From Blastocystis hominis (taxonomy: Eukaryota; Sar; Bigyra; Opalinata; Blastocystidae): 64,000 nucleotides of DNA. Under the pieces are notes generated by a model that saw only the letters and a program-made list of their open reading frames with translations, ran no database searches and had not been told where the DNA came from. The stretch is taken from positions 241,939-305,938 of the forward strand of contig NW_013171860.1 in the NCBI RefSeq assembly GCF_000151665.1. Reading direction: 5' to 3'. Shown in pieces: positions 27,397 to 50,073 of this stretch (position 1 is the first letter of the stretch; the number at the start of each line of letters is the position of its first letter). A program made the translations under genes and the position numbers.

Positions 27397-27647
27397 TGAA
27401 AAAAAGTATAAAAAATGGTAATTCTGTGTTTGACATACTAGAGACAATCCTGAATGATTGATTGATCGTTAATCCGTACTCTCGAAGCTGTTATAGCGCA
27501 CATGGGAATGGTAAATCTTCCTTCCAGCATGATGTCCTCCTCCTATCCATATATATATTTTTTTATTTTTTTCTCTGCACCACCCAAGTGTTCCTTTTCC
27601 CCTCACGTCTTTCTCCAACAAACATCTCATCAACTCATCACCAGTCT
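27397..27647. other. Spacer between nuclease start and giant gene end
   Basis: Holds the giant gene's 3' motif (minus TGTTTGTT, 27617-27624) and the 5' leader of the nuclease-fold gene. A run of t's at about 27559-27574 is the only other feature. Confidence 0.55.
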
Positions 27648-30600
27648 CTACAACGCCAGTCGGATGACAACATCCATGGGGTTCTCGGGCTCTCCGCACC
27701 AGCACTCGCACTTGGTATCCGTGAGGAAGCACGAGCACTCGCTGCCCATGTCCTCGAAGATGTATCCTCCGCTGCAGGGGTACTGTGACACCGCGAAGGC
27801 GTAGTTCTCAGGGAGGTTCAGCGCGCGATTGCCCGCGCTGTCCTTGAAGTCCTCCGCGTTGAACTTCACCGTGTAGCTGTGGCCCGCAGGGATCGCCGAG
27901 CCGCGCACCACCACGCGGTTGGCGTCCACGAACAGGCGCGGGTACACCTTGTCCTTCTCGCGCGCGTAGTGCAGCGTCACGTTCCGCGTGGTCTCGTCGG
28001 TGAGCACGAACACGAAGTCCTCCGCGAGCTCGATCCGCTTGTTGAACACCAGCACCAGGTCCTCGCTCGCGGGCACGTGCTGCTGCCCGTTGGCGGGGAA
28101 GATGCTCATCATCTGCGGCGGGGTCTGCAGGCTGCGCACCGTGAAGTGCAGCTCGATGGGCTGCGAGATGCACACGCCGAACGTCGAGCAGATCGAGCCT
28201 TCCGGCAGCACGATCCGCACCTCCGAGTCCTCGGGGTAGAACAGCTGGCGCGCGGCCACCACCATGTTGTTGCTGAACAGCATCTCGCTGGTCGGCAGGT
28301 ACAGCGGCGCGTCGTTGTTCACCAGCACCTTGTAGAAGGCCGAGCCCGCCATCACCGGACGGTCGAACGTGAAGGTCACTTCCAGCGTCGACTGCTGGCT
28401 CTCCGCGCCGTTCTTCGGCATCGAGTCCACCAGGGCGGGCTCGGCCGTCAGCAGCGTGTCGTTCGTCACCACGAACGCGAACTTGTCCGCGGGGAGCAGG
28501 GCGGGAAGCGGGAAGCGGCTGAAGGCGTCCAGGAAGAGACCCAGCGTGGTCTCCACGACGTATTCGTAGGCGGGGTGCAGCGGGCGGAGCGGCGTCACGC
28601 GGACCGTGTTGCCCTGAATCTCGAAACGCGTGTTGTTGGGACGGAGAATCTGCGTGAACTCGGGGTGCTGCGGGCAGGAGAGCGTCAGCGTGCCCACGTA
28701 GGGGATCACGGGCAGCGCGCCGGTGAGCTCGATCGCCGCGTTCACGTAGACCTGCACCGATCCGCTCGGCGAGAGCGACGCCCACTGCGGACTGTCCACG
28801 GCGGCCGTGGTGAACACGAAGTCCTCCTCCGCCAGACGGCGGCGCAGCACGGTGCGCGAGGCGTCGAAGTCGGGGTCGAAGATGCAGCGCGCGTTGTACG
28901 TGGTGCTGGGCTTCAGCTCGGACAGCAGCACGCTCATCTCGCGCATCTCGGGGAACACGTAGCTGCGGTAGCCCTTCTTGATGAACTGGGCGCGCGACGG
29001 CCACACGGGGACCGTGCTGCCCTCGGGCACCACCAAGCAGTACACGTTACCGGGCATGTTCACCGCCTCCACGGCCACGCGCACGAAGGACGCGCTCGTC
29101 TCGGACAGGATCGGATCGGCCAGCAGCATGGACGGCAAAGCGAAGTCGTTGTAGGTCGCGAACATCACCGAGCCGCTGATCGGCACGAACTCCACATCGA
29201 AGCCCTGGCAGTCAATGAAGTATTCGGTATCCGGGTCCAGACTCTTGAACAGGTACGCGGGCGGATTGTTCACCGGGTCGACCACCACCTCCTGCGAGCC
29301 CAGAATCTCCGCATCGAAGCGCTGGCGGATCGTGCAGGTCGCCGTCGTGTGGAACTCGCTCGTCACGAAGAACGACACGAAGTCGTAGCCCGGACGCGCC
29401 TGGATGGTCAGACGCGGCTGCCCGCAGAACACGGTCACGCGGTTCGAAGGCAGGCCGGCGAAGTTTCCGTTGACGGTGGCGCGGACCGTGATGGTGATCG
29501 AGCTGCTCGTGCAGTACTCCATTCGGATCGGGCAGGACTCCAGAACGGTTCCGGAGATCGCGCACTCGTCGTCGAAGACATTGCCGTAGTGCACCGTGTA
29601 CTTCTCGATGGGGAAGTAGTTCTCCAGCGGGTGCGTGAAGCCGACTCGCATCTCCCCCTGCGACATGCGCTCCGCGACCAGCTTGATGTTGGCGCCCTGC
29701 GGGAAGCGATCCACGTCCTCCAGATCGATCGCGGTCACGAAGTCGCGCGACACCTCCGTGCAGCGCTCGCCCTCCTCGACCTCCTGGTTCGCGCAGGTCC
29801 GCACCGTCACGCGGTAGTTGCTCACGCTGTTCGACACCGTGATCGTCGCGCTCGTCTCCGCCGTCTGCGCCTGCTCCGCCTCCGACACCGTCTGGTTGAA
29901 CTGCAGCTCCGCTACCACCACGTGGTAGGTCACGTTGTTCGAGCGCGACGCCGTCCAGCACGCCTCGGCCTCCGTGTACACGATCAGGCCCGCGCTGGTC
30001 TTCACAGGATCGTTCAGGCGGCAGATTCGGAGGTCGGTGATGGGCTGCGGCGTGGAAGGCTTCGTGCGGAACTCCACCGCGTAGGAAGGAAGCGAATAGC
30101 CGAGGCTGTTGCGAGCCACCAAGCTCAGCTGGTAGAGCGTGTCGGGCTCCAGATCGGTGAGCGTCAGCACGCCGCTCTCGCGCGCCGTCGTGTCCTCCAG
30201 GGGCGCGCGGTGCGCCGAGGGCACCAGCACCGCGATCATGGACTGGATGGCGTCGCCGCCAGCGCTCGCGCCGCTGTACTCCACCGTGGCCGTCGTGGCC
30301 GTCACCGCGGTCACCGCCACGTACGTGGGCGGCATGGGAATGCCCGAGCTGGTGGTGAACTGCGGCGTGGCGAAGTCCGTCGAAGAAGGCATGTTGGTCT
30401 CATCGCAGAAGGCCTCGGCCTCCCAGGTGATCGTGTAGTTGGCGTTGGACAGCAGCGGCACGGTGAAGTAGGCGATGCGATCCATGAAGCGGACGCGGTC
30501 GTCGGTGGTCAGCAGCGACAGCACGTCGTTCGGGTAGCCCTCGGGCGTGAAGGTGACCACGCCGCCGCACGAGTGCACCGCCGTCGAGAAGTGGATCTCC

Positions 30601-33600
30601 ACGGACATCTGGGAGTCGGCGTGGTAGTAGATCTGCAGCACCTCCGGCTTGACGTTGTCCTTGCGGAGGATCAGCTCGGAGGCGGCGGAGGGAAGGCCGA
30701 ACAGGTCGGTGAACGCGCCCTCCTCGACGAACACGCGCACATAGCGGTCGGTATCGCTCACGAAGCTCACTTCGAACGTGTAGCTCTCCGAGTCCTGGTG
30801 GTACTGGAAGTTGGCGATGTCGCAGTTGGTGCAGTGAAGCAGCTGGCTGTTGAAGTCCGTGAACGAGGACAGGATGTGGGTGATGTTGGGGATCACCACG
30901 GTCACCGGGATGTTGAAGATCGAAGACTCGGAGGTCCACTCGCTCGAGAACTCGGGCTTGGTCGACTGCATGTTGTGGAAGAACGTCACCGGGCCGACAG
31001 CGTCGTTGGTGCTGTTGTACTTGTTCGCGAACACGCCCTCCGGGACGGTCAGCGACACCTCGTTCAGCGAAGTGGTCGCGTGGATGTACTGGATCTGGCA
31101 CAGACCGCGCACGGCGTTCAGATACGACTGCTCCACCACGCGGTAGTCGGGGTTGCTCACCACCACCTTGCCGCACGCGAGATCGGTGGGCTCCGAGGAG
31201 AGCAGCTCGAAGCCGCAGAGCGCGCTCGAGCAGTAGAGATCGGTGACCGAGAGAGAAATCACCGGCTTCATCACATACACCGAAGAGAAGGAAACGTCGT
31301 GCTCCATCTTGTTGCCCGCATCGTTGAAGATCATCTCCGAGAGGAAGCGAATCGACCACTCGCAGCTCGTCGTGCAGGACAGCTGGATCGTCATCACGTA
31401 CTGCATCACGATGTCCACGTGCTCCGTCACGACGCTCAGCACCTGCACGGAGTCGGAAGCCGTCCACATCGAGGACGTGAGATGGCTGATCGGACCGTTC
31501 TGGACGTTCAACGCCAGTTGGATCGTGTTCTCGGAGCTCGACAGCACCTCCACGGTCATGTTCGGAGAGACTTCATTGATCCACACCACCAAGCTCGATT
31601 CTGCGTTCGGATTGCCGTAGAGATCGTACACGACGCCCTGCGGGTACACGAGAGTGAACTGCACGATCGACTCGTACAGCTCCACCATCGAGAACGTCAG
31701 CGACCAGGAATACTTCTGGCCCTCCTCGATCACAGAGAACGTCTCCATGACCACCGTCGCGCTCTGATCGTCGTATTCGATCTGCAGCTGTCCGTAATCC
31801 ACACCCTGCACGACCTTATCGAAGGTGCCGAACACGGTAATCGTTTCGTTGTCGTGCATGTAGCGCTGCGTCGCCTCCAGCGTCATCTTGGGCGGCACCA
31901 TATCGATGGTGATCAGATAGCGCACAGGCATGCACTCGTTTCCATACGCATCGCGGCAGTTCTTCAGCGTCACCAGCACCGTGCCCAGATAGTTGTCCAC
32001 GCGCTCCTCCATCGCTGTGAAGCGCAGCGTCACGTTCGTGCGATCACTATTCAATTCCTCCACGTGGTTCAGCACCACACTGTCGTGCGTGATCTCGAAC
32101 AGCGTATCCTGCTCCACCGGCTCGGTGAACCAGCAACTCAACGTCACTTCGCCCACACTGATCACCGAAGGAACCTCGCACGACACCATCGGCGACACCG
32201 TATCATAGAAGCCATTCACCACAATCGTCTCCGCGTTCATGCTCTCATCCGAGCCAATCACCGCGCCCGCAGCCAGCGAGACGGACCAATCTCCCTGCTG
32301 CGTGATAGTGAACGTAAGTTCCACGGTGTAGCCGTTGATTGCCACGCTCTCCAGGACGGCATTGACGCCAGTGACCTTGCTCTCCACGATCGACACCACC
32401 GGCTGCGAGAACTCGAGAACCACCACGTTCGGACGACCCGCGGGAATCACGGGGTTTGAGCTGAGGCGGAGCACGCCGTCGGTCGCCACCAGCACAAAGG
32501 CGTTGGAAGCGGCGTTCTGGAGGCCATTGGTGGCCGTCAAGGCGCCAGCAGCGACGACGATCGACATCTCGTCGCCCGGAGCGAACTGGACCACAGTGTT
32601 GCTGAGCAGAGCGACAGACTCCACGAAGCCCTCGCCTTGCGGTTCCTGCATCACGAAGCTGATCGCGTTGCCGTTCAGCGTGCCGGTCACGTAGGTAGCG
32701 AAGTCGGCCGACAGCGAAGCTTGCTTGTTGAATGTCAGCGTGATCGTCACAGGGAGCGCGCTGAACGCAATGCCGCCCTGGATCGTCACCGATTGGACCT
32801 GAGGCGGCTCGTTATCCACGACCACCTCGAAGGAGGCGGGCGAGACGGTGTTGCCAGCCAGATCCACGAACGCCGTGGAGGACAGCGACAGCACGCAGCG
32901 GAAGGAAGTCGAGAGCAGCACGGGCGTCATGGTGATGGTGACCGTATCGGCCTGCACAGACGTCGACTGCACGGCGAACAGCTGACTCAGAGACATGCCC
33001 TCCGCGCCAGTGACCGAATCCAGCACGAACAGCTCTTCGATGGCGTCCGACACATCGGCCATTCGATGGTTGAAGACCAGCTCCACAGAGAAGGCCATCG
33101 CGCCGTTCAGCGTGGTCGTGATCACCGGGTCGATGGGCTGCATCACGGGCTGCTCCGCGTAGTACACGATCTCGTAGCGCGCGTACGTCTCCATCGCGTT
33201 GCCATAAGCATCCACGATGTTCTGGAGCGAGAACGCGACCACGCCGCTGCCCGTGGGCTGGAACTGGAGCAGGTTCGCGCAGCTCTCCGTGCTGTTGAGC
33301 GTTACAGACGTCAGCGAATCCACGTTACTCACCGTGAACTCCACGGGGTGAGTGAAGGTCACACAGGCAGTGACGGGCAGTTCAGAGACGTACGCCTCGG
33401 CAGCGACGCTGGCTTCCGGAGCAGCGCGGCTGTAGTGCACCGTCAGCGTGGCAGGGGACGAGGCGCGACCCAAAGAGTCCACGAAGAAGCCCTCCGCGAA
33501 CTGCAACGTCAGATCGCAGTCCGCATCGGTCTCCCAAGCAACGCTGATCTCCACCTTCTCGTTCTGCACCTGCGTCACAGAGCCCTGGCACGTCAGGCTG

Positions 33601-36600
33601 CGCGTGAGCTTCGACAGCGTCATCACCACGTTGGCAGGCACCGTGATCGCCAGATGGGCATCTCCGTTCACGAACGCTTCGCCCTGGCTCGGCGTGGCCG
33701 TGTCGATCTGCACAGACGACACTCTCTCGCCCACAGTCACCGTGGTGTCGATGAGCGGGTAGGCTTCGTCGATCTCGAGGAACACGTAGCGTCCAGCAGA
33801 AGGCAGCTGCCAGTGCGTGCGCACGAAGTCCTCTTCCAGATACAGGTAGCAGCGATTGCCGGTCGTGATGTCCACCGTCAGCACGACGCACTGCGAGGTC
33901 ACTTCCTTCACGACCGCACTGCTGCAGCCCTGCAGCGCGTTCACGCCTCCCTGGCCGCGCAGAATGCTCCAGTCGTAGCACAGCGTCACGTCGTTCCGAG
34001 TGTTGGCAGCGAAGACCGTAGGCGTGGTGCTGATGATCGAAGGCGTGCTCTGGTACGAGCGGAATCCGATCATGATGCTGTACGAGAGACCGCCGTAGCC
34101 GTCCTGCGCCGCTCCCTCCAGAATACGGATGAACACCGAGCCCTCCGTCAGACTGCGACCCGTAATCGTCCAGTTGCACAGCGAGTTCGGATAGGCGCTG
34201 GTGATCACCGCGTTCTCCGTCAGAATGAGGTCAGGCACGGTGAGATCCATGAGCGCGCAGTCCGTAACCGTCCACACGTCGATCGCGAACTCCTGGGTGT
34301 TCACGTACGTGTCGTCCAGCAGGTTGTGAATCTTGTAGCTCAGCTGAGGACCGTTGATCGTGAACTTCGCAGAGCAGTTGTTGCTCGCACCGCCCTTGTT
34401 GCCCACCAGATCGGTCACCTCCTTCACCGAGAAAGTGAACGTGCTGTTGCTGACGCAGGTGATCGTGATCAAGAAGGCGGTATCCGACTCCATCGTAATG
34501 TTGCGCACTTCGCAGGCGCTCGGGAGGTCCAGATTGGATTCCGCGAGCGGCTGGCACGGCTCGCTCAGCTCTCCCGGAATGGTGATCGTGTTGAGCACGG
34601 TGCTCTGCGCGGGGCAGCGCAGCGTGACCGTCGGACTCACGAAATCGTAGCTGAACTCCATGTCGTTCGACCGCAGATTGTAGTTGTTGTGGGCGTCCAT
34701 CATGCACTGCTCCTTCACATACACCGTGAAGACGCCGCTCGACAGGCTCGCACGCATGTCTCTGTTCCGCACCGTCACATCCACGACCTGGTTGGACGTC
34801 AGCGACTGCTCCTCCATCGAGAAGCTCACCTCCAGATTCTCCGCACCGACAACCTCGAAGCACGAGGTGTTGAAGCTCTCCATCAGCTCGCTCACGCTCA
34901 TATGCATCTGCAGAGTCTCCACCGCAGGACCGAAGAGCGTGCTGCCCATCGCGGACAGCGTGATGACTGGAGGATAGCCGTCCACGTAGATCACGCGGGA
35001 GAAGGAGGCCGAAGGGAGGCCCGTCAGCTCGATCGCGGCGCCCTCCAGAATCGTCACGTTCAGATTGCCCTCCTGGGTCAGAGGACACACGCCCCTGTAG
35101 GAGAACACGTTGTCCGTCTGGTTGCGCGTGAACACGCAGTTGGTCAGCGGCTGACCGCCCTCGAACTGCAGCAGGAAGTAGCTAGCGGGCTCCTTGTCTC
35201 CGAACGAAGCCATGTCGGTGAAGGAAACCTCAACCACGAAGTTCTCCTCCTCCTCCGTCTTGGGAGTCATCTCGAAGACAGGCACCGTGGGCGTGTTGTC
35301 GAAGTAGATCTGGAACTGCGTCGCCTCGTTGAAGAGTCCGACGCTGTTGATACACGCCATGGCCGGAATGTAGATCGTCATGTTCTTGTAGCGGTCCTCC
35401 GGATAGGTCTCGAAGTTGAAGAACGTGATGGTGAACGTCTCCAAGATCGTGCCGTTCTCGTCCACGCTGTCGCTGATCTTCTCAATGCGAGCCACATCGC
35501 GGTCGTACTCGAAGACGCTCGGGAACACGTACTCGTAGCTCGGACACAGCCACACATAGTCGATGCTCAGCGTGAAGGTGTTCTGCACCTGGCTGGTGTA
35601 GCGAGGAGCATCCACCGTGATGCGAGCGCCCTCGTTCAGCGTCAGAGGCGTCAGGGTGTTCGACACAAAGTTCGGGTTGCCGGCAAAGTCGGTGAAGCGG
35701 CCTTCCGGAACGAAGAAGATGATGTACGTTCCGTTCACGGGCTTGGGATCGAACTCGTAGTGGCACGTGTGGTCGTTCAGCTGGCTCACCGTCACGGACA
35801 CTTGCTGAACGGCGATTCCGATCGAGTTGCACGTGAACAGCGTGTTGGGCTCCGAGATCGAGAACTGGATATCGATCGTGTTGGTGTACAGGTTCGACGA
35901 CTCCGTCGACAGAGTCACCTGCGGACGCGTGTAGTCCATCTCCACCGACTGCATCACCATCGTGATGGCATCCTGCGAGAACACCTCATTGCCGTAATCA
36001 TCGCTCAGCAAAATGTTCTCCACCAGGTCCACCTTCACCGTTCCCTCCAGACAGTTGCTCAGCTTGTAGCTCACCACGCTCTTGTCGTCCTGCACCACGT
36101 GCGACAAGAACGCAGCATCGCAGCCTTCCACCGTCACCAGGCTGATCGACTCGTTGAAGCGGTACAGCGGCTCGTCGAAGAAGATCGCCACCACAGGCGC
36201 GTGGTTCCAGTACTGCTTCAGCGTCTCGGGGAACTCGGTCGTTCCCTCCTCCACGAACGCCAAGCGACCCACCGGAGCCGCGAAATCAAACTCGATCGTG
36301 TCCTCGAACGCCAAGTTCTTGTTGCCGTAGCTGTCGACTACCTTCTCGGCCTCCGCTCCGTAGACGCAGAATCCGTCCATCACCGCCAGAGAGATCGAGG
36401 GCAGCACCGACAGAGACGAGCTGAGCACATAGCCCAGAGGGCGGCACGCGTTCCGGAAGTACATCAGCTCCGTAGGCAGCGCCGAACCGATCGTCGGGAG
36501 GAAGCCCTCATGGAACGAAGCCGTGAAGACGCCCTCGTTTGCGACAGAGCTCCAAGGCAGGTCCACGGACTGCCGCACATCGATTCCGCCCTCCGGATAG

Positions 36601-39600
36601 GTGAGATACACGCCCTCCAAAGACAACTTCGCGGAGGTGGAGCGGTACTGCTCCTTCACGAACAGACCCGCAGGAACGGTCACCGACTGCATCTCGCTGG
36701 TCATCTCGAAGGTCAGCTGCACTGCCTCCTCTCCCGCCAGGATCGTCATCATACCCTCGCTCACCACACTCTCGTTCAGCGTCCAGTCCGCAGCAGGCGA
36801 GCGCAGCACGATGTTCTTAGCGCCCAGCGTGTTCGTCTTCATGTCCACCAGATGGACATCGCGCAGCAAGGTCGCATCCACCGACTCGCCAGCCAGCAGA
36901 ATCGGCTCCGACGCGTACGTCGCCGAGGCTACCGCATCGCTCGTCTTGCAGTAGCCAGCGTTCAGCGTGATCGTCGCAGGCACCTCCAAAGCACGCAGGG
37001 CAAGCGTCGTTCTCGAGGGAGTCTCGCTCACGAGATAGGCCTCCATGTTGCTCACCACAGGCTCTCCCCACTCGGCACAAGGAATGGACGTGTCCACCGT
37101 GATCATCTGGAGACGCTTGGAGGAATCGAAGGACACGGTCAGCACAGGAGGGTTGCGGAGATAAATGATCGTGTTGTAGGGGATCATGTTGTACGTCACG
37201 GGAATCAGAGTTGTGTTGGTGGTGTAGGAAATGGCTCCCTCCTCCATGGACACATACACCTCGTTGGCATCGACCGGACGAGGGAACGCGATGCATCGCA
37301 TTCCGTCTTCCTCCTTGTCCTCGGTCGGCAGAATCTGATTGCCAGCAGTCACGTGGATCTTGCTGTGGTCGCGGTAAATGGTGTAGTTGACTCCGAACGT
37401 GAAGCAAATGTGGATCTCCGTATCCAGAACCTTCTCGTACGCCGTGTAATCCATGGGGTACTCCACATACGACACCTTGGGAGCACTCGTGAACCGATCC
37501 TTCTGGCTGGTCAGCCAGTAGGTCACGTTCGTGACCTTGTCAAGAACATGGAAATAGGTGTTCGCGTAACGCGTGAAGTAGTATTCGTTGATCGACATGT
37601 AGTTCACTCCACGAGGCACAGGATACGCAGACTCTCCCACAGCGACGCTGTAGCCCAGAAGCTGGGTGGGCAGCGAGGAATACTCCGAAGTGATGTCCAT
37701 GTAGTCGTTCGTCTGCTCGGCCCACTCCGAAGAAGACCAGTACAATCCGAAGATGAAGCGGATGTGGTCGTAATCGTCATACTGCGAGTCGCTGTGATGA
37801 TTGCCCGTCGTGTAGATGAACAGGTTATCTTGGAAGTCCAGCAAGAAGCCGTGCATTTCGTAGTTGAACGAGTAGTCGTTCGACACATTCGCGGGAATCT
37901 GGCGATCCAAATGCTGCGTCATGGCCACGTAGCTCCAGGACACCACCGTTCCAGCCTCCGTATCCTTCTTCGGGGTCCAGCTGATGCAGCCATCCGTTCC
38001 GTGATCGATGAAGCCGATCAGGTCGCTCACCCATCCAGAATCCGTGAAGAAGATCTTATCCCACGTGAACACCTTTCGAAGCGGAACGAAATCAAACTCG
38101 GGCGAGTAGTACGAGTTCACACGCACGATCACGATATCGCCGGGATTGAAGGCGGGATCGTACGCGAACTTGAACTGCGACTCCGTAAACTCGACAATGA
38201 AGGCTCCATCGCACGTCACTCGGTCCTCATGGATCTCGATCACGTGGTGATCGATGGTGTAGGTATGCACATCCACAACTACGCCATTGGATTGCCGACT
38301 CACGACCATGTGCACGTTGTGATCGGACGTGAACGCGTTCGAGAAGTCGCAGCGACTCGTCGGCATGTCGGAGCTCAGCAGGAATTCCAGACGGAAGTTG
38401 TCGCTGGGCAGGATGTAGGTCTCGTTCTGCGAGGGAGCACCCAGATTCTCCTGCGACAGCTGGAGCACCATCGTGATACGCGAAATGAAGATGTTCACCG
38501 GGGTCTGCTGCTTCACAGGAGCTCCCGAAATCGAGGTCACCACGTCGTGGTTCAGCGAGACATCAAACTGCGCAGTGTCCTGCACGATGCAGAGCGTAAC
38601 GTCCATAGCCAGATGGCTCGGGTCCATGACAAAGTTCTTCTGCTCCACAGCGACATTCGAGACATTGTATGACAGCACGTTCTCGCTCGAGGCCTTCACC
38701 GGCGAGTCAAACGTCACATGCACAGCCGCGCAGCCCTCGCTTCCGCGTGTGTACGTCAGCGAGTAGGTGGGCTGAGGAACCTTCACCACCATAATCGAAG
38801 AGCGCGTGGGGTAGTTGAGGACACTGCACGTGCTCGGAACAAAGCCCACGAAGTCGATCACTCCAGGAGCCGCTCCATCCACCAGCACGCCGAGCAGCTC
38901 CGTTCCCTCGATCGACAGATCGATATTCTCGCCACGGAACGACAAGTCGTTCACCTGGCAGCCGTTCTCCGTAAAGCCAGACACGTCCACCACAAAGGAA
39001 TCCTCCGATACAAACAGGTCTTCGTTCGAGCTCCAGCCCTGTAGGGTTCGCGAGCTGGACATGATTCTGCCCACGTTGATAGGAATCACGTTCTGCGTGT
39101 TCGATCTCTGGCCCCAGTACGAATACAGCACGCCAGCCTTGATCTCAATGTTGCTCTGGCCGACGCTTGTCGGGTTCAGCACGAACACGTCCACTAAGTA
39201 AGCATCACTAGAGGTTACAGGGCGCAGACGTCGCTACATTGTCGTTTGAACTTTCACAACTTTCAAACAGTCGGGGAAAGTAGCGATTTCGGAAACATTG
39301 GTCACATGCTGAAGGACGGTCCAGCCTCCATCAATGCGAACAGTTGCAAAATCAGGAACTTCAGAGATGTCACCGATAGAAGCCTTCACATCCACACTCT
39401 GAGCAATGTAGCTGTCTACAGTTCAAGTTCGCGCGGCAGAACCTACAGGAAGCAGAAACACTATACTCGGGAGAGAGCTCACTACCAGATCTAAACGCTC
39501 CCTCGCCCAGAAGTAAGGTAATCATTCCGATTGTTTTGTCCTCAACTTCAGCAGTAATCACAAACTCTGTAGACTCTCCAGAGGACGGAGACAACGAAAC

Positions 39601-39759
39601 AAATCTAGGAACAAACACTCTAGCAGCATTTTCTAAAACAGCAGGTTCTGAAAAGGTACAGCGAAAGGACACCGTTCTCGAATATTGGTCCATATTCGGT
39701 GCCTCGCACTGCACTGACAATGCAGAAACTGCAGCACATATGACTAACGTAACAATCAA
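27648..39759 (-). CDS. Giant secreted Ig-like/FN3 repeat protein, 4,016 residues
   Basis: Predicted secreted or surface adhesin-like protein. Start ATG 39759 gives a signal peptide (MIVTLVICAAVSALS). Two introns (39416-39446, 31 nt; 39208-39237, 30 nt) are followed by one uninterrupted exon of 11,560 bases; total coding length 12,051, divisible by three. Most of the chain is a series of about 100-residue beta-rich units with a recurring D-x-x-GN turn (DSYGN, DDYGN, DFAGN, DLVGN, DAYGN, DLAGN, DLYGN, DSAGN), typical of bacterial-type Ig-like domains. FN3-like modules lie at about residues 3120-3500 (TATTATVEYSG, LEPDTLYQLSLVARN), and two SbsA/Big_5-like domains at about 3755-3975 (MPKNGAES, FPANGQQHVP). 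The end is a Cys signature, C-x12-CxC-x6-CxCxC-GE, shared with the gene at 44023-45399. No C-terminal membrane helix is seen. GC-rich throughout. Stop TAG 27648-27650. Confidence 0.85.
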
Positions 39760-39967
39760 AGTCTAGAATGTCAGACACCGCCCAAGCGGGCAAAGAAACC
39801 TACCGAGTGCATATTTCTCTTCTTAAATTGTCAATATCAGCTAAATATGGAAGAAATCAACCAAAATAACGAACCGAGTGGTTCAAATAACTGGCGCAAA
39901 ATGGAAAAATCCCCGCTCACCACAACTTTAAACACTTTACCCGTTTTTCTTTCTAACAAACAGAACA
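39760..39967. promoter_or_regulatory. Upstream region of the giant gene
   Basis: About 200 bases between the EngA stop and the giant gene's start, both on the minus strand. It includes EngA's TGTTTGTT (39955-39962). No further element was recognised. Confidence 0.5.
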
Positions 39968-42022
39968 TCAACTAGTGAGATGAATTACCCCTTCGCTTTG
40001 CTGCTGCCGCTGCTGCTGATGCGTGATTCTATTCTTCAAAATCCCTCCATTCCGTACTGTGTAAGGATTCTCTGAAGCCCGCACAAAAATCCGGACCGGC
40101 ACTCCGTTCAGATTGAACTCTTCTCGCAGGCAGGAGCACAAGTAACGCAAATAGGTTGCATCCAGTTCTTTCACATTGCAAAACAACACAAAGCTTGGCG
40201 GTCGCGCCTTTGTCTGCGTGATATACCTACACAAACATAACCAATGTATTCCCATCCATACTTCAACTTCACTTCCTTGCCCGATTTCGTTCGAGGAGGA
40301 GGATGGCGGAAGGAAATTGCATCGAGCCATCGATTCAGAATTCCTGTCGAGATGCGGGTCCGCCATCGGTCAAAAACATCAAGCGCCAGCGGGAAGACAG
40401 CATCGGTTCCCCTTCCATAGAGTGCCGAAACGACGATCGAAGGAACGTGTCCAGCCTACTTCCACAACGCGACTCTGCCGCCTACCTGAGGCACGAATCG
40501 ATCCATGTATTGGACAAGCTGCTTTTTGGCGGCTGCGGGCGACTGCATCACGTCGCTTTTGTTGAGAATCACGAAGAGTCCGCGGCCCTTATCGAGGACC
40601 TCCTTCGCGAGAGCGAGATCGTGTTTGGTGAGGAGGCGACTGCCGTCCAAAATAAGAGCGACGACGTGCGAATAGTCGAGTTGTTTGTGAGCGTGGAAGA
40701 CGCTGAGCGAGTTCAGAGAGGGCGGCAAAACGCCGTCGGCCTTGGGGATTCCGGGCGTGTCGACGACGCGGATACGTCGATTGTGGAATTCGATCTCCGT
40801 GCTCACCGTGTCGCGTGTGAGTCCCGGAATACTCCCCGTAATGAACCGATCTGTCTTCAAAAGAGTGTTGAGAAGCGTCGATTTCCCGCTGTTTGGGATG
40901 CCCAAAATCGTCAGCTGCAAGATCTCATCATCCAGATCGCGCGTGTTCTTTTCGTTACTCGGCTCGCTCGATTCTACCATGTCCACGTTCGTTCGCACGC
41001 GATATCCCTGCCGGCTCCGCGACGCCTTCGCTTCCCTTGCCTCCAGAATCTTCGCGTAGCGCTCTCGCTCCGCGGCTTTGTTCAGATTGATCAAATCGCC
41101 GAACGGCTGCAGCACTTCGAACAGATCCAGCAAGCCCTCGCCGTGCTCCGCGGAAACGCCCACAGGCTCGCCCAGACCCAGCTGGTACACTTCAGATTTG
41201 AGTTCTTCCCAGGGCGGGCAGTTTCCATTGTCGTCTGTGTGGGAGAAAATGCCTTCGGTCTGCTCGTGGGAAAGTGGAAAAGAGGTACCTTGTTGACTAC
41301 GACGAAGATTCGGGAATGCAGCGATTTCTGCTTCTTTCGGAGCCATCTGGGGTTGAGACAAAAAGCGGAAACGGGTACGAGGCGATGGCGCGGTCTTCGT
41401 TCGTCACCCCGACCTTGCCGTCGAGGAGGAAGAACAGAACATCCGCTTTTTCCACGGCGTATTCCGTTTGTTTGTTGATTTGCTGCTCGATTCTAGGCAA
41501 TAAGGCAAGTATTGAGCGGGATACAGGCTGATGTTTTTGTTTTCAGGAACATACCCTCCGGTGTCGATCAGAGTAAACTCCAGACCCGAGATATGCCCTT
41601 TTCCCTCACGACGATCACGCGTTGTTCCAGCTTCTTTGCTCACCAGTGCATCGCGTCTGCCCACGAGTCGATTGAACAAAGTAGACTTCCCGACGTTGGT
41701 TCGTCCAACCAGAGCAACCGAAAAGTGGTTCAGCTGGACCACTTTGTCGTTCCTTTCCTTTTTCTCCTTTTTTTGTTTCAAACTAGTGCCAATAGAGTAC
41801 CAAAACATACTCAATCTTCATGTACTGCTCATGATTCGATCCTATGAATCTCCTCTGAGTTGCAGTCGATAGAAAAGAAGAGTAGGCTGTTACACGATCC
41901 CAAACAACCGAAGAACACGGAAAACATCCCAGTCTCGAGATTCCTCTCCCAGAATGAATGGGTCTAATGCAACGAGCGAGTCTGAACGATTTGGCTCCAG
42001 TTCTGCCGAAAAGACAAAACAT
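39968..42022 (-). CDS. der: EngA/Der tandem GTPase, probably organellar
   Basis: Double-GTPase ribosome-assembly factor of bacterial type. First G domain: [19 protein letters not shown] and [14 protein letters not shown]; second: [30 protein letters not shown] and VILNKSDVM; then a KH-like C-terminal part ([44 protein letters not shown]). Start ATG 42022 gives a basic, Arg-rich leader ([27 protein letters not shown]) lacking acidic residues, as expected of a mitochondrial-type presequence. A 28-nt intron joins the leader to [13 protein letters not shown]. The genomic TGA is at 39968-39970, five bases before the motif. In bacteria Der matures the large ribosomal subunit; here a role in the organelle's ribosome is inference. 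Confidence 0.87.
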
Positions 42023-42107
42023 GTCTGGCACTCTGAACCAAATCGAGCGAAATACCCATTTTAAATCAATACCTATCACCTTGATGCAACAAACAAGCGG
42101 TCACAAC
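42023..42107. other. 85-bp spacer between GT49 end and EngA start
   Basis: Contains the GT49 gene's TGTTTGTT (42088-42095) and EngA's leader. The two genes are in the same direction with almost no spacer. Confidence 0.6.
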
Positions 42108-43866
42108 TTAATACTTCTTCAAATTTTCTTTCAGTTCAATTCCCGCATCCCGTCGCAACTGCTTCCACTTTATGCAATCGAACAACTTCATCCCGTTAAC
42201 CACACCACTCAGCTTGTCCACGATGGCACCCAATCCCGACTGCGTCGAGTCCCAAAACTGGCCAAACTCCATAAAATCCTTCGCGTTTTCCTCCGACCCC
42301 TCGCAGTTCGGATTCTGCACCTCATACGACGGCAGCATGCTCAGCGTGTACGCCTCGTACTGCTTCTTGACGTCCTCGTTCTGCCGGAACACGCGCGTCT
42401 GGATGGTTCTACGCTCGACTCCCTCGCCTATCCGCACGACTCCAAGCTGGTATCCACGAAATACGACCCCAGCAACAGATGGAACACGTAGCCTTCATGC
42501 CGCAGATACTCCGTCAGCTGCGTCGAGTCGAACCCGGGCGTGACGAAATCCTCGTCGTACGGAATATCGAACGAGTTGTGGCGACGCATGTAGAAACTAT
42601 CCGTCAATCGGGGAAACTGGGGAAACTAGTCATCCAGAGGCTCCATGCAGGACAGTTTCCGCATATAGTACTTGTCCTTATTCGGCTCAAACCACGATTT
42701 CTATTCTGAACCGCGGGACCCTGGCCTACCATAAGGAACTTTCCCCGCGGGAAGCACTTTTTGGCGCGTAAACAGGCGGCCGCGTCGTTCAGAGTCTCGT
42801 GATCGCTATGTTTGAGAGGCGTTTTGTTCGGACTTTTCTCCGTAAAAGGCGGGAATGGCGACCAAATGGATGGGCTCGTAGAGCACGCTGAGCGGAATCT
42901 GGCGAAGCCGCGTGTAGAGATTGGCGGAGGGCAGCATGGAGGGCTCGATCTCGATGAAGTGCGTGGTGAAGACGGTCGAGATGGCGACGTTGCGGAGGAA
43001 ATTGGCGGGGAAGACCGCGTTGTAGAAGTCGCTGTAGACCACGGTGATGGTCATCTGGCTCAGAGGGAGGGACTTGAGCGCTTCGAGGACGGTGGAGTGG
43101 GAGGAGGCGTAGGGACCAGCGAAGACGCAGAGATTCACGGGACTAGAGATTAGAAAATAAAAAGAGAAAGAGAGAGAGATACCCTTGCCACAGCGTGGGA
43201 AGGACGGACATGCTAGATAGTTTGTCGATTCTGAGGTAACAAAAAAAGACAAAAAAATACTCAAGAACACTCACCAGAGTGATGTCGTACGGGAACGCAT
43301 CGTTGTGGATAACTGGGTTCAAAAGAGAGAAGAAAAAGAGTTACAGTTCTTAGGTTTCACGTAAGCTTGCTCCCCTTTCACTGTATACACCTTAATGGTC
43401 GCGGAATAACGAATCAAGCTTGCAACATCGATAGTTTCCTCTGTTATCGAGCTGGCGATCAACCCCGTCTGTTTCGCTCGCTCATACACGGCTCGACGCA
43501 CCATTTTGGGAACGAACGACGTATCAAGGCGCTTTGGAGGCTTCTCTCTTTCTCCGATCACAACTCGGATCGGTCTCTTAGCTTCCTGAGAGACCAGTTG
43601 AAAACCATCCTTGTTCGCATCAGAAACATACATCTTGTTTTGGAATTTGCTGATAGGCTCCTGGAACAGCTTCAACTTGGCTGTCAAAGACTAGCATCAC
43701 ACCAAAACACGAACCACTACATTTTCCGGGAGGGAGCGCAATAGTACATTCAGAAAAACGACGATCGAGCACACTAAGATTCTTGGGCATTACGAAACAT
43801 AGAAAACTCATACAGGTCCATGATCAGATTCACGATTGAGTACTGTCCATTCGAGTTTTTCGCCAT
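42108..43866 (-). CDS. LARGE/B4GAT1-like glycosyltransferase (GT49), type II membrane
   Basis: Golgi glycosyltransferase resembling the GT49 domain of LARGE, which adds glucuronic acid in matriglycan-type chains. ATG 43866 gives a short cytosolic part (MAKNSNGQYSIVNLIMD) and one membrane anchor (LILVCSIVVFLNVLL) formed across a 32-nt intron. The catalytic region follows: DITLIDKLSSMSVLPTLWQGPVNLCVFAG, then FPANFLRNVAISTVFTTHFIEIEPSMLPSANLYTRL, and the C-terminal RHNSFDIPYDEDFVTPGFDSTQL. The DxD motif expected near 'FIEIEPS' is replaced by ExE (EIE), so metal binding is questionable. The LARGE order (start of domain, NxLRN, Y-DE-F) is kept. Introns of 30-44 nt. Stop TAA 42108-42110. Confidence 0.8.
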
Positions 43867-44022
43867 CTTGTCTCTCAACTCTTTGAATGAGTTTCGGGTT
43901 GAAACTCCAAGAAGCGTTTCATGAGTGTCCCAATTCCAGTGTATTTTTAGGTTCTGTTAGGGACCATATATAGCTCTCCGTCCGTATATTATTGATAATC
44001 CGTTAGTAAGAGACACGAAACG
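43867..44022. promoter_or_regulatory. Divergent promoter region (GT49 / small Ig-like protein)
   Basis: 156 bases between divergent start codons; contains a tatata stretch near 43965-43990. It could co-regulate a glycosyltransferase with a secreted protein (inference). Confidence 0.5.
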
Positions 44023-45399
44023 ATGAGCTCAAAGCTGTTAGTTGCTTTGTTTTGTCTGTCATCTGTTGCTTATGCAGCGTGTAATGCGGATGATGTGACC
44101 TGTGAAGATCCCATCCGGTTTGAACAAAGTACTTGCTGTCGCGAAAATTGTGATGAGTAGACCCGTCTAATTTTTATATTTCAAAGTATTCTCCTTATTA
44201 TGGAGAGACAGACGTTCTTCTTGATACGACGTTCCAACTCCAGTTCACCGATTCCATTTATATTTCTGAGGGACTGGATCATTACTTTTTCCTTCTAAAC
44301 CAGTTTAGTGGAGTGTCGACCGAACTCCCTGCTAGTTGCATAAATGTGGTGAGCGGACACACGCTGGAGATCTCCGTTATGGCTTGTTTGGGAGATATTC
44401 TCGAGGCTAACACCGTGTATGTTCTTTATATTTCCCAGCGTCTCAACGACACTGGCATTCAAACTTTGTCGAGCGTGAAGGGAATCAGTTTGAGCGAAGC
44501 CGCTTTCGGCCTCCAGTACAAGAGCATTTCGTTCCGCACCATTCAGCGTATATTTCGATTCTCCGTTTCAGTTCTAGACATTTCTGCGGACGTCGTTCCC
44601 GAGAAGTGCTCTCCCGCCTTCGGATCGACCAATGTTCCCCTGAAGCCGGTCATCACGATCGCGTTCAGCTCTGCTGTGCATCTGGGCGTTGGAACCATCG
44701 AGCTTCGTTCGTCCACGCACCACCCCTCGGCGTCCGTGACGGTGGATGTGTCGGACAAGACACACGTGGTGCTGGGCGAAGATCTGAAGTCCCTGCAGGT
44801 CTACGACGTGTCTCTGATGGGCAACGAGCAATACCAAGTGCTGTTTGACGCTGGAATCGTGCTGAGCGCGAGCGGAAGCAAGTGCGGAACGACGGACGCG
44901 TTCGTGTTCACGACGGAGCCTGGTAGGTCGCGTGGAAGCCGTGTGTAAATTGGCAGATGTGGAGAAGCCGTTCATCAAGATCATCAGTCCTGCCAACTTC
45001 AAAACGGGTCTTCCGAAGAATCTCCGCGTGTACGTGGTGTTCAGCGAGAGCGTCCGACCCAACGTGGGCATGATCAGTTTCCTCTCGGAGAAGGAGGAAG
45101 TGGCGGTGAACGTGCAGAGCAGCGGAGAAGTGCGCTGCGAGGGCGACACGTGCACGATTCAGCCGAACGGAGGCTTCCCTGCGGGGACCTACGAGATGTC
45201 GTTCAGTGAGTCGACGTTCGTGGATCAGTCGGGGAACACGCTGGTGGAGGGCGTGGCCTCGCATGTGTTCTCGGTGACCGAGGAGAGCTGTGGAATGGCG
45301 TTCCTGAGCGTGAACGAAGGCGAAGAGTGCTTCTGTCAGAGCTTGGAGAACCAGTGTCAGTGTCGATGTGGAGAGACATACTTCGTTAAGGACTACTAA
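44023..45399 (+). CDS. Small secreted Ig-like protein, relative of the giant protein
   Basis: About 410 residues. Start ATG 44023 gives a signal peptide, MSSKLLVALFCLSSVAYA. The first intron that keeps frame is 32 nt (gtacttg...gagtag, about 44130-44161), leading to NPSNFYISKYSPYYGETD. Two domains of SbsA/Big_5 Ig-like type follow: VPEKCSPAFGSTNVPLKPVITIAFSSAV and ISPANFKTGLPKNLRVYVVFSESVRPN, each ending in D-x-x-GN-like turns (FVDQSGNTLVEG). The C-terminus carries C-x12-CxC-x6-CxCxC-GE (GEECFCQSLENQCQCRCGE), the same spacing as the giant protein at 27648-39759. Other introns: 30 nt at about 44549, 34 nt at about 44922. Stop TAA 45397-45399; TGTTTGTTGGAAACA at 45428-45442. Secreted or surface location is likely; function unknown. 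Confidence 0.78.
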
Positions 45400-45408
45400 A
45401 TGTCATAC

Positions 45409-46910
45409 TCACTGTATTTCTATCGAGTGTTTGTTGGAAACAGAATAGGCTCCAAGCGAATGGACTCGCTCATACAAGCTTAGAAACTGCGCAGTGAGCT
45501 TGCTTCGGTTCAAGTCGCAGCTTTGATCGGACTGGTTGTCGAGTGAATCGGTGGATGAATGCGTGGATGAGCTATTCAAAGAATGGATGGATGAGCTATC
45601 CGAAGAATGCGTGGATGAACTATTCAAAGAATGGATGGATGAACTATCCGAAGAACTCTCTGATTCGCTCTCAGTCTGCGTCTCCAGTCCGTTCTCACTT
45701 CGTTTCAACTGCCTCTCGTCTTCGTTCATTGCTCTCCGTTCCTGTTCAAAGAACAGCAGCTCCAGCTCCACTACAGTACTGAACGCTTGCTGCACTTTCT
45801 CTCCCAGCTCCTTTTTCAGCACCGAAACCAGCAGTTTCTTCTGCTGAAAAGCTTCTCTACTCTTCAGATTCGCTCTCTTCGCTCACTTTGGACAGCCGAC
45901 ACCGCGACGGCGCAAGGCTCGACGCCATTTCTCTGGATTCGATCCACACTGGTCCTCCACGATCTCTTCAGGCGAGTGGAACAGCTGGATGTATCCATTC
46001 ACGTGGGCTTCCCCGCGGATATGAAACAGTATGATCGCCTCCAGCTCGTTCACCAAGGCAGATCGAGGCTTGTCGCCTACCACGCCGTCGTTCTCTTGGA
46101 TGCTCCGAGCGAGCTCTTCGCGTGGCATGCATGCAGGGAAGTTCATTGAAAGATACTCCATGTCTTCGAGATTTGCTTCGGGAAGCTCGTTTTGCATGAG
46201 TAGATAGATCAGGGTGGACTGGGTGGATAAAGGAAAGCAGAATGGAACGCAAAAGATATTATACAGATTTATACAAAAGGTAGAGTCTCTCAATCTCCAT
46301 TGGATCGAAGGGATCGAATGAATCCACTGAAAAATCGAGGCCTTGCTTTGAAAAGTACAATAGACTGCTTACCCACGTTGTTCATTCGCTTTATTAGGTG
46401 CTCACACCAGACTTTGGATACAAGAGTGCGTAACTCCTCATCTGAATATTTACAATCATAATCTAGAATCTGTCAAACCAAAATAGCATAATACTGTCTC
46501 TGGAAAAAACTGAAATCTCCTCAGACTCATATGGAATGTCGATCGAACCATGGCGACACTTCTTGTGCTTCCGGTTCTTTTTCTTTTCACTGGATCTGGG
46601 TTGGTGGATTCTCATGGTAAAAGAATACCGAAAAACATACTGCTTCTGCTTACAGGCTATGATATTGAGACGCGATGCTTCTTGGTACAACTGTTCTATC
46701 GATAACTAGAAATGATCCAAAAGATCAGGTCGCACTTTTCCTATCTGACTTGGTTTTCTCTGAAACATCAATATCACAGGAGTCTAGATATCAAATGATT
46801 TCCCAGTATCCAACATTATGTTGATAGTCAATGGCTGCTGGAGCAAAATCGAACGAAACATGCCGATTTCGAACTCTCTCCCTATCTGGTTCTTCCACAA
46901 GACACTCCAT
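45409..46910 (-). CDS. Unrecognised multi-exon protein with Ser-rich repeats
   Basis: I do not recognise this family. A consistent model starts at ATG 46910 (MECLVEEPDRERVRN), uses introns of 31, 30, 30, 32, 31, 46 and 30 nt, and gives about 400 residues without internal stops. The N-terminal half has basic patches (EKKKNRKHKK), the middle is helical (EELRTLVSKVWCEHLIKRM, ALVNELEAIILFHIRG), then a coiled-coil-like stretch (KKLLVSVLKKELGEKVQQAFSTVVELELLFFEQERR), then Ser/Asp/His repeats (SSIHSLNSSSTHSSD). It has no signal peptide. The encoded stop (45409-45411) is only 10 bases from the opposing gene's stop. A motif variant TGTTTCCA lies in the frame at 45442-45435, with T45447 in codon position 1 at -5, so the protein may end earlier by polyadenylation. 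Confidence 0.6.
45428..45442. terminator. TGTTTGTTGGAAACA, imperfect palindromic 3' element
   Basis: Plus-strand TGTTTGTT serves the small Ig-like gene. The reverse strand reads TGTTTCC, a degenerate copy that would serve the orphan gene. The same extended sequence (TGTTTGTTGGAAACA) also follows the ENTH gene at 14807-14821, where there is no convergent partner, so the GGAAACA half may have a role of its own. Confidence 0.55.
45557..45652 (-). repeat. Two 48-nt coding tandem copies
   Basis: 45557-45604 and 45605-45652 are direct copies differing at two positions. On the minus strand they encode SSxHSLNSSSTHSSDS-type repeats of the orphan protein. Confidence 0.9.
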
Positions 46911-47859: not shown

Positions 47860-50073
47860 ATGGTCCTGCGCCGTGTTGCCACCTCCACTTCACCCCTTAT
47901 TGATGAAGTGTTCGGTATGTACTCATTTAACGACGAAACGCTCCAGAAGTCGGTGCCTAAATTCGCGTATGTGGAAGCGAATCGAAGTGAGGTATAGATA
48001 CGAGAAGGTCCTGGAAGCGAGAAGGAGCCCTGAGATTGAGTTGGATAAGGATACTGCCGATGTGGTTGCCCAGGCCATGATGAAATGGGCGGAGAGCCTG
48101 GGAGTGACCCACTTCTGCCACTGGTTCCAGCCGCTGTCTGGAGTAACGGCTCAGAAGCAAGATGCTTGTTGGTGTGTGCAACACGATTAATTTTAGTTAT
48201 TTCCCGTGTGAACGGCAAGACGGTTTCCAATTTCACGGGTAAGAAGCTGATTAAAGGAGAGCCCGATGCTTCCTCATTCCCCAACGGAGGTTTACGAGAG
48301 ACGCACATGGCTCGTGGCTTTACTGTGTGGGACCCCAACAGTAATCCGATTATTGTGAAGCACGACAACGGAGGCACCTTGTACATCCCGTCGGTGTTTA
48401 TTTCCTGGACGGGAGACGTTTTGGATCAGAAGATTCCCTTCCTCCGTTCGAACGAAGTGCTCATCCGCGAAGCGGACCGCTTGTTCCGCATCATCGGCCA
48501 TCCGCAGACCAACTACAGCGTGAACTGCGGCATTGAGCAGGAGTTCTTCCTAATCCAACGCGAGTACTACGACAAGCGTCCCGACCTCAAGCTTACCGGT
48601 CGCACCTTGTTCGGTTGTCCTGCTCCGAAGGGCCAGGAACTCCACGACCAGTACTTCGCCGAAATGTCCACCAAGTCGCTGAACTTCATTCACGACGTGG
48701 AGATCCAGATGTGGAAGCTTGGCATTCCCTCCACCACGCGTCATCGCGAAGTGGCTCCCGGACAATACGAGCTGGCTCCGCTGTACAACGAGAGCATTCT
48801 GGCCACCGATCAGAACCTGCAGTGCATGGACATCCTCAAGAAGCAGGGACGAAAGCACAACCTGAAGGCTCTCTTCCACGAGAAGCCTTTCTACGGAGTG
48901 AATGGATCTGGAAAGCACAACAACTGGTCGCTCAGCAGCAAGGAAACGCCTACGTTCTTGGAGCTGGGATCGCATCCTGAGAAGAACATTCCGTTCATCG
49001 TTTCGGTGGCCGCATCGATTCGAGCGGTGGACAAATACGGAGATTTGCTGCGTGCCTGCGTTACGTCGGCTTCCAATGATCATCGATTGGGCGGTCATGA
49101 AGCGCCTCCTGCGATTATGTCGATGTATCTGGGCGAAGACGTGAGCAACGCGTTGGAATTGTACATGAAGCGAACGAACGCGACGCCGTACTGCGTCAAC
49201 GACAATCTGAAGACGGGAATCAGTTCGATTCCGAGCATCAATCGCGAGGGAAACGACCGAAACCGAACCTCTCCGTTCGCGTTCACTGTGAATAAATTCG
49301 AGTTCCGTGCGGTGGGATCGAACCAGAGCGCGGCACGAAGCAACATGGTGATCAACACGATCATGGCCGATTCGCTGCGCTACGTTGCGGATATGATTCT
49401 GTTCAACAAGCGGAAGATGTGCTTAGAAGACGCCATCCAGCGAACTGTGACGGATATCGTGAAGAAGCACAACCGGATTATCTTTAACGGCAATGGATAC
49501 TCGCAGGAGTGGGTCTCGCGGGCTGCCGAGCTGGGTCTTCCCAACAACGTCTCGTCTCCCGAGGCCATCAAAGCGTGGACCGATCCGAAGAACGTGGAGC
49601 TGTTCACCTCCATGGGAATCATGAAATCGAGCGAGATCAGCTCGCGTCAGTCGATTCTGTGGGATCAGTACAACAAGGATATCTTGGTGGAGGCTCGCTG
49701 CATGCGCGCTCTCGCCACGGAGCGCATCTTCCCCGTTGTTTTCAAGTCGCAGACGCAGTTCAACGCGTCGCTGTCGGCGCTGGCTGCGAACTGTCCGGCG
49801 GTGGATCGAAGTGCGCAGGTGTCGTACGTGAGCAGCATGGGCGAGGAGCTGAACAGCGCGATCGCGGCGCTGAATCAGCTGGAGAAGGTGATTAAGACGA
49901 TCGAGACGCCGGGATTGATCGAAGGCGAGGAGGCGCAGTCGTACTTCTGCCGAGACGACATTCTCCCGGCGATGGCGGAGCTGCGAAAGCACGTCGATCG
50001 GCTGGAAGGCATGGTGGATTTCCGGGAATGGCCATTGCCGTCGTACTCCGCGATGTTCTTCAACCAGAGTTAA
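47860..50073 (+). CDS. Type III glutamine synthetase (GlnN/GSIII)
   Basis: Makes glutamine from glutamate, ammonia and ATP; the large GSIII type common in Bacteroidetes, cyanobacteria and many algae and stramenopiles. About 710 residues, usual for GSIII. Start ATG 47860 (MVLRRVATSTSPLIDEVFGMYSF); the Arg-containing beginning could be a short organelle-type leader but this is weak. A 31-nt intron (about 47967-47997) joins FAYEKVLEA; a 29-nt intron precedes FISRVNGKTVSNF. GSIII hallmarks: HFCHWFQPLSG, NCGIEQEFFLI, HREVAPGQYELAPLY, GVNGSGKHNNWSLS and RLGGHEAPPAIMS. After 48209 the gene is a single exon. Stop TAA 50071-50073; TGTTTGTTGC at about 50154. Confidence 0.93.

Follow-up and report, generated by a model that had tools for sequence, protein, structure and literature searches.

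Two secreted proteins of Blastocystis hominis, one giant and one small, whose genes lie in a 64,000-nucleotide stretch of contig NW_013171860.1 (assembly GCF_000151665.1, positions 241,939 to 305,938; the whole stretch is termed the window), end in the same six-cysteine tail, and this tail is a real C-terminal module that is named nowhere in the libraries searched. The likeness had been pointed out in a preliminary description made from the sequence alone, and as an observation it is confirmed. At least nine distinct proteins, encoded at 11 places in the same genome, were found to carry the tail, which is C-terminal in each of them. The tail is probably a stapled module serving as the attachment or assembly end of secreted proteins, mostly of the Big_5 type (PF13205, gathering cut-off 23.6 bits). 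Here, C1 to C6 alone denote the tail cysteines in order, and C10, C11, C13 and so on denote genome contigs and their proteins. The features of the two genes are as follows.

27648..39812, - strand: giant secreted-protein gene (start ATG 39812, main open reading frame (ORF) 27648-39194, stop TAG 27650-27648)
39709..39812, - strand: giant signal-peptide-like start MHS-TLIVTLVICAAVSALSVQ, interrupted by a GT-AG intron of 41 nt (39803-39763) in our own reading
27795..28127, - strand: giant terminal Big_5 (PF13205, ORF residues 3689-3799, 33.3 bits versus the cut-off of 23.6)
27651..27776, - strand: giant six-cysteine tail, C1 to C-terminus (pattern itself 27696-27776)
27617..27624, - strand: giant gene 3'-end motif TGTTTGTT
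44023..45399, + strand: small secreted-protein gene (exons 44023-44128, 44161-44922 and 44957-45399; 436 amino acids, aa)
44023..44076, + strand: small signal-peptide-like start MSSKLLVALFCLSSVAYA, by inspection
44923..44956, + strand: 34-nt phase-1 intron of the small gene, immediately 5' of the exon for terminal Big_5 and tail
44957..45258, + strand: small terminal Big_5 (PF13205, residues 290-390; CopC-like fold)
45289..45396, + strand: small six-cysteine tail, C1 to C-terminus (pattern itself 45289-45369; predicted strands)
45428..45435, + strand: small gene 3'-end motif TGTTTGTT

The cysteine tail of the giant and small proteins

A six-frame search for C-x12-CxC-x6-CxCxC gave exactly two matches in the window, 27696-27776 (- strand) and 45289-45369 (+ strand), which are the C-terminal ends of the giant and the small gene, respectively. 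With the spacer relaxed to 12-14 and a following G included, two matches were observed versus none in 200 shuffles of the residues in all six frames. The preliminary description was right in placing the strict pattern at both C-termini and mistaken in letting the proteins end at CGE, as the small protein continues for seven residues (CGETYFVKDY, then the stop) and the giant for 13, ending in CGEPENPMDVVIRLAL before its stop. The small protein, earlier put at about 410 residues, has 436 aa in three exons according to its gene model, and Pfam assigns it three Big_5 stretches (82 bits). The main ORF of the giant encodes 3,848 aa, our re-modelling being limited to this ORF and the start exons (4,016 aa in the earlier account), and its Pfam content comprises fn3, Big_5 and weaker CopC/Big_12 matches.

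Two further claims held good, namely that Big_5 adjoins the tail, with Pfam matches in both proteins, and that both begin with signal peptides, in so far as hydrophobic signal-peptide-like starts are seen by eye, without a signal-peptide program. The cysteine tail itself lies outside PF13205: the match in the small protein stops at residue 99 of 145 and C1 stands at 110.

A 24-nt tandem repeat occupies window positions 45554-45673, just 3' of the small gene. The strand opposite the giant gene holds open frames of 1,526 and 2,011 aa (27879-38672, + strand), which are probably a shadow of the giant's codon use.

The tail family in the genome and its database relatives

The family was found by searching the organism's own 18.7-Mb genome with single proteins and for Big_5, and its count is a lower bound, as the genome search scores best candidates only. 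A proteome check for more tail proteins had been proposed earlier; more do exist, each with a C-terminal tail, and signal-peptide-like starts were located for four of the nine. Neither of the outcomes named as refuting the module, a lack of more such proteins or a random placing of the pattern, was thus observed in the searches made. Seven members have six cysteines (giant, small, C13, C14, C19, C38 and the C34/C36 protein) and two have four (C24 and C10). The 128-residue end of the C34 type occurs with 100% identity at C34:364477-364860, C36:141459-141842 and C36:208422-208805. Compared with the small protein, the paralogue ends (domain and tail) are only 22-27% identical, yet the cysteine frame is retained in the six-Cys members. 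The x12 spacing, first taken as defining, did not survive this comparison: C1 and C2 are separated by 12-14 residues in the own-genome paralogues and by up to 26 in database relatives, and what stays invariant in the six-Cys members is CxC-x6-CxCxCG. From C6 to the C-terminus there are 3-15 residues across the nine (the 3 being that of C10, dependent on a stop made by polyadenylation), and the C-terminal residues vary by paralogue (ETYFVKDY, PVDLFEL, EPENPMDVVIRLAL). The upstream parts are diverse as well, with a Big_5 array in C38, HRM and fn3 in C19 and C14, and HRM and one Big_5 in C24.

The terminal domain scores as Big_5 above the cut-off in five of the nine proteins (small, giant, C19, C14 and C38); the C34 type and C10 were reached via similarity to C38 and C24, respectively. 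Big_5 was matched in all six sequences of set A1 at E<=1 and in seven of the eight of set A3. Out of 15 Big_5 places in the genome, 13 fall in tail genes as we read them; C38:56329, just upstream of the C38 frame, is assumed to be part of the C38 gene, and C11:254474 is the one place outside the tail genes, in a short protein ending in MLIGIGIGMGIMLVLIFVAYFILRCLV plus a basic tail. This C11 Big_5 protein (L051, C11:253000-258500, - strand) is without the cysteine tail and has a transmembrane segment with a basic cytoplasmic-like tail; a start MFQTIAVLVILSIVSA stands upstream of it. The best 19-residue hydropathy is at most 0.76 in all nine tails versus 2.68 in the C11 protein, and by the same measure no hydrophobic C-terminal segment of the kind expected of a glycosylphosphatidylinositol (GPI) or single-pass membrane anchor was found in the nine tails. 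The transmembrane segment of C11 in place of the tail is one case and only suggestive. In a search that covered eight of the nine proteins (all but C10), signal-peptide-like starts were also seen upstream of the C13 and C24 main frames, to which introns would have to join them.

Short introns typify this genome. A phase-1 intron of 32-37 nt beginning with GTAGG lies directly 5' of the terminal domain and tail in small, C13, C14 and C34 (for the latter three, one to three alternative GT-AG choices exist, and the typical length and GTAGG start were preferred), and the frame is open through the intron place in giant, C19, C38 and C24. Among the eight genes examined at this point (all but C10), exon shuffling of terminal domain and tail would thus be a reading based on four of the nine.

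C10 is a weak match by itself (E 0.6), yet it retains C3-x6-C4-x-C5 near the likely gene end. Its presumed end (L063, C10:106000-110500) reads ...ATTTTTATTT-GGAG-TGTTTGTT. By a published rule, the polyadenylation, or poly(A), site lies four bases 5' of TGTTTGTT (PMC4159000); the C10 end fits this, and the addition of poly(A) would supply its stop codon. An exact TGTTTGTT lies within 120 bases past six of eight stops (the exceptions being C14 and C24) and past the presumed C10 end.

Hormone-receptor-domain (HRM, PF02793) matches at C10:104037-104507, about 2.6 kb upstream of the C10 tail on the same strand, may belong to the same gene. HRM repeats are abundant (62 genome matches at E<=0.1, 26 of them singly over the cut-off), with places including C7:286016, C1:1922527 and C11:151130; of 14 control genomes, one has an HRM match, below the cut-off. 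CxCxCGE searched as a DNA pattern has 12 genome places versus six for the reversed pattern; the four that belong to the family are C13, C19 and the pair in the window. The other eight (on contigs C1, C2 and C4 and at C13:1161468, C24:252773, C36:524676, C36:525279 and C38:204400) were rejected after being read in translation, none having C3 seven residues before C4.

Database searches, which reach only proteins of similar length with shared short words, extended the family to relatives elsewhere, among them P0012, labelled singapore isolate B (sub-type 7). The C19 end as query returned four proteins, each about 2,380 aa long and with the tail at its end, and a profile of eight ends returned 28 proteins, 21 with the tail (seven small-type, 11 C34-type and three four-Cys) and seven being tail-less frames. 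Together these 32 proteins comprise 22 six-Cys, three four-Cys and seven tail-less entries, and no types beyond small, C34, C24 and C19 were among the matches found. Exactly nine residues follow C6 in all 22 six-Cys proteins; the C1-C2 spacers range over 12-26, the longest being in C34-type proteins, which have a variable Glu/Ala/Gly-rich insert there. Three further proteins were set aside: one corresponds to an upstream part of a small orthologue, and no tail was seen in the other two, which are distant Big_5 proteins with E values of 0.034 and 0.96.

Among six small-protein sequences (near-identical P0009 and partial P0033 omitted), mean pairwise identity is 58% in Big_5, 45% in the C1-C2 loop, 92% from C2 to the end (the last 23 residues) and 100% over the last nine residues. 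In the five C19 sequences the corresponding values are 60% for Big_5, 78% when the tail is taken from C1 and 86.5% when it is taken from C2; of 2322 windows of equal length in that protein, 77 reach this last value, so some other parts of C19 equal the tail in conservation. By these alignments, the extreme C-terminus is under constraint in each type and different between types. The earlier view of a defined module is supported by a multi-copy family, C-terminal position, orthologue conservation and the lack of a Pfam or NCBIfam name.

Elsewhere in the window lie a type III glutamine synthetase (48085-50073) and an AAA_11/AAA_12 helicase-like protein (61434-62912).

Predicted fold and searches for a name

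As the preliminary description had supposed, no named domain accounts for the tail. Six tails searched against Pfam at E<=10 gave just two weak matches, at 10.5 and 8 bits, both with the tail of C13, and the same six gave none in NCBIfam at E<=1. The C10 end (domain and tail) matched SVA (PF05326) over the tail region at 16 bits versus a cut-off of 23 (E 0.012). A tail profile run against PDB had one match, 7a3t_A (Core protein), at E 0.52, which was treated as chance, and among the literature titles listed (15 of 10,833 in one search and 10 of 37 in another), none concerns such a tail.

The terminal exon of the small protein was modelled with AlphaFold2 from 17 sequences, with a mean predicted local distance difference test (pLDDT) score of 84.9. 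The modelled terminal domain is similar to entries for CopC and S-layer SbsC; the matches of a PDB fold search were of immunoglobulin (Ig) and CopC type, and the tail was not apparent among the 50 listed. Strands are predicted at 124-129, 132-137 and 140-145, the third being the conserved C-terminus of the protein. In the register read from the DSSP string, C2 (124) is opposite C6 (137) and C3 (126) opposite C5 (135), and C1 remains for C4. The tail is likely to be a disulphide-stapled hairpin, in which C2xC3 and C4xC5xC6 would be two strands stapled by C2-C6 and C3-C5, C1, just past the last Ig-domain strand, would close onto C4, and the last residues would contribute the third strand. In the four-Cys branch C2 and C6 are replaced together, C2 by F or L and C6 by E in C24 and its three orthologues from the database, and the two by V and Q, respectively, in the C10 copy.

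Theta-defensins are cystine-ladder beta-hairpins, in which CxC strands are stapled face to face across the hairpin, as predicted for the tail. They differ in that C1 of the tail is upstream beside an Ig domain and the tail ends large proteins, and the likeness is one of predicted form. C-terminal cystine knots of mucins and von Willebrand factor, which form inter-chain bonds, are likewise the Cys-rich ends of long secreted modular proteins; they are longer and differently spaced, and none of the six tails searched in Pfam matches them. Closer to the organism, 26 Ig-associated Blastocystis genes with IPR008009 have been put forward as adhesion candidates (Denoeud et al. 2011, PMC3129679); the organism and the Ig adhesion idea are similar, the InterPro family differs, and the available text of that paper does not mention a cysteine tail.

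Possible role of the tail

On the attachment or assembly reading, the module would lie accessible at the very end of proteins that have neither a membrane segment nor a lipid-anchor signal in their tails, a partner would recognise the module together with the extreme C-terminus, both strongly conserved within each type, and adhesin-like proteins would in this way be held in the cell surface coat or directed there. Surface anchoring or sorting, as first proposed, is possible and would fit the conserved last residues and the tail-less transmembrane C11 protein.

The gut is rich in proteases, and the tail could merely be a structural cap that seals or stabilises the last Ig domain against them, with no sorting involved. 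Its predicted small sheet and its place directly behind the terminal domain, in one exon with it in four of nine genes, would suit a cap; we regard this as doubtful, as from C2 on the tail is much more strongly conserved than the domain in question, down to the invariant last nine residues of the small type. Pairing of the cysteines between molecules, after the manner of von Willebrand factor and mucin knots, would make the tail a covalent dimer or polymer former, and the Cys-rich end of giant, modular, secreted proteins would be apt for it. This is unlikely, since the deduced intra-chain pairings take up every cysteine, whether six or four, and no tail matched such a domain in Pfam. The C-terminal domains of type IX secretion and GPI signals are cleaved C-terminal sorting signals, and a tail read and removed by a transport or attachment enzyme would share their C-terminal place and explain conserved last residues; the tails are, however, without a hydrophobic stretch and the alignment shows no cleavage-like site common to the paralogues, which makes such processing quite improbable.

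Shared descent from one ancestral last exon, with no function of the tail's own, would account for the phase-1 intron that the models of four genes place at one and the same junction, but retention of the cysteine frame in six-Cys paralogues of such low identity, and orthologues 86.5-92% identical from C2 to the end, leave this very improbable. A disulphide or a metal role had been offered at the outset, and of the two the disulphide is the better supported, by secretion and by the joint loss of C2 and C6, while nothing of weight speaks for a metal cluster. CxC and CxCxC motifs can bind metal, and one tail has a weak zinc-finger match (10.5 bits versus a cut-off of 27); cysteines on the secretory path, to which the signal-peptide-like starts of at least four of the proteins point, tend to oxidise, and the four-Cys branch lost two cysteines together. 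A metal-binding cluster is accordingly so improbable as to rank below every reading above.

Several points weigh against an attachment or assembly role and the fold behind it. A location in the surface coat and a binding partner are suppositions, and with C-terminal residues that vary from one paralogue to another, no single signal for a receptor stands out. The terminal domain falls below the Big_5 cut-off in two of nine proteins (C13 15.8 bits, C24 15.4 bits), and those of the C34 type and C10 have no Big_5 match in Pfam. A signal-peptide-like start was looked for in C19 and none found, and the start candidates of C14, C38 and C34 were not accepted as such. The pLDDT blocks of the tail in the small model are a modest 57-70, and the hairpin pairing is a register read from the DSSP string. 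A four-Cys model has the same register (127-132, 135-140) at a mean pLDDT of 61.2 and about 40-54 in the tail; it shares rows with the first model, and a helix replaces the third strand. C2/C6 is one of 15 possible pairs and the losses in C24 and C10 are maybe one event, so that they are support and not proof.

Blastocystis inhabits about a billion people (PMC5608401). For secreted and surface matter, two Blastocystis genome papers, in their available portions, present hydrolases, proteases, sugar-binding and collagen-like proteins, coat carbohydrates and general Ig candidates. More speculatively, the tail could be a new stramenopile C-terminal sorting or attachment module, a stapled mini-sheet that a dedicated receptor or a surface layer would read, that would keep adhesin-like proteins, giant and small, on the cell with neither membrane nor lipid anchor, and that would have spread between genes as an Ig-plus-tail exon behind a phase-1 intron; this is a tentative idea. 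The tail common to giant and small secreted proteins provides a sequence handle for a protein set that may belong together, and opens to testing the question of what retains or assembles secreted proteins that have no membrane anchor.

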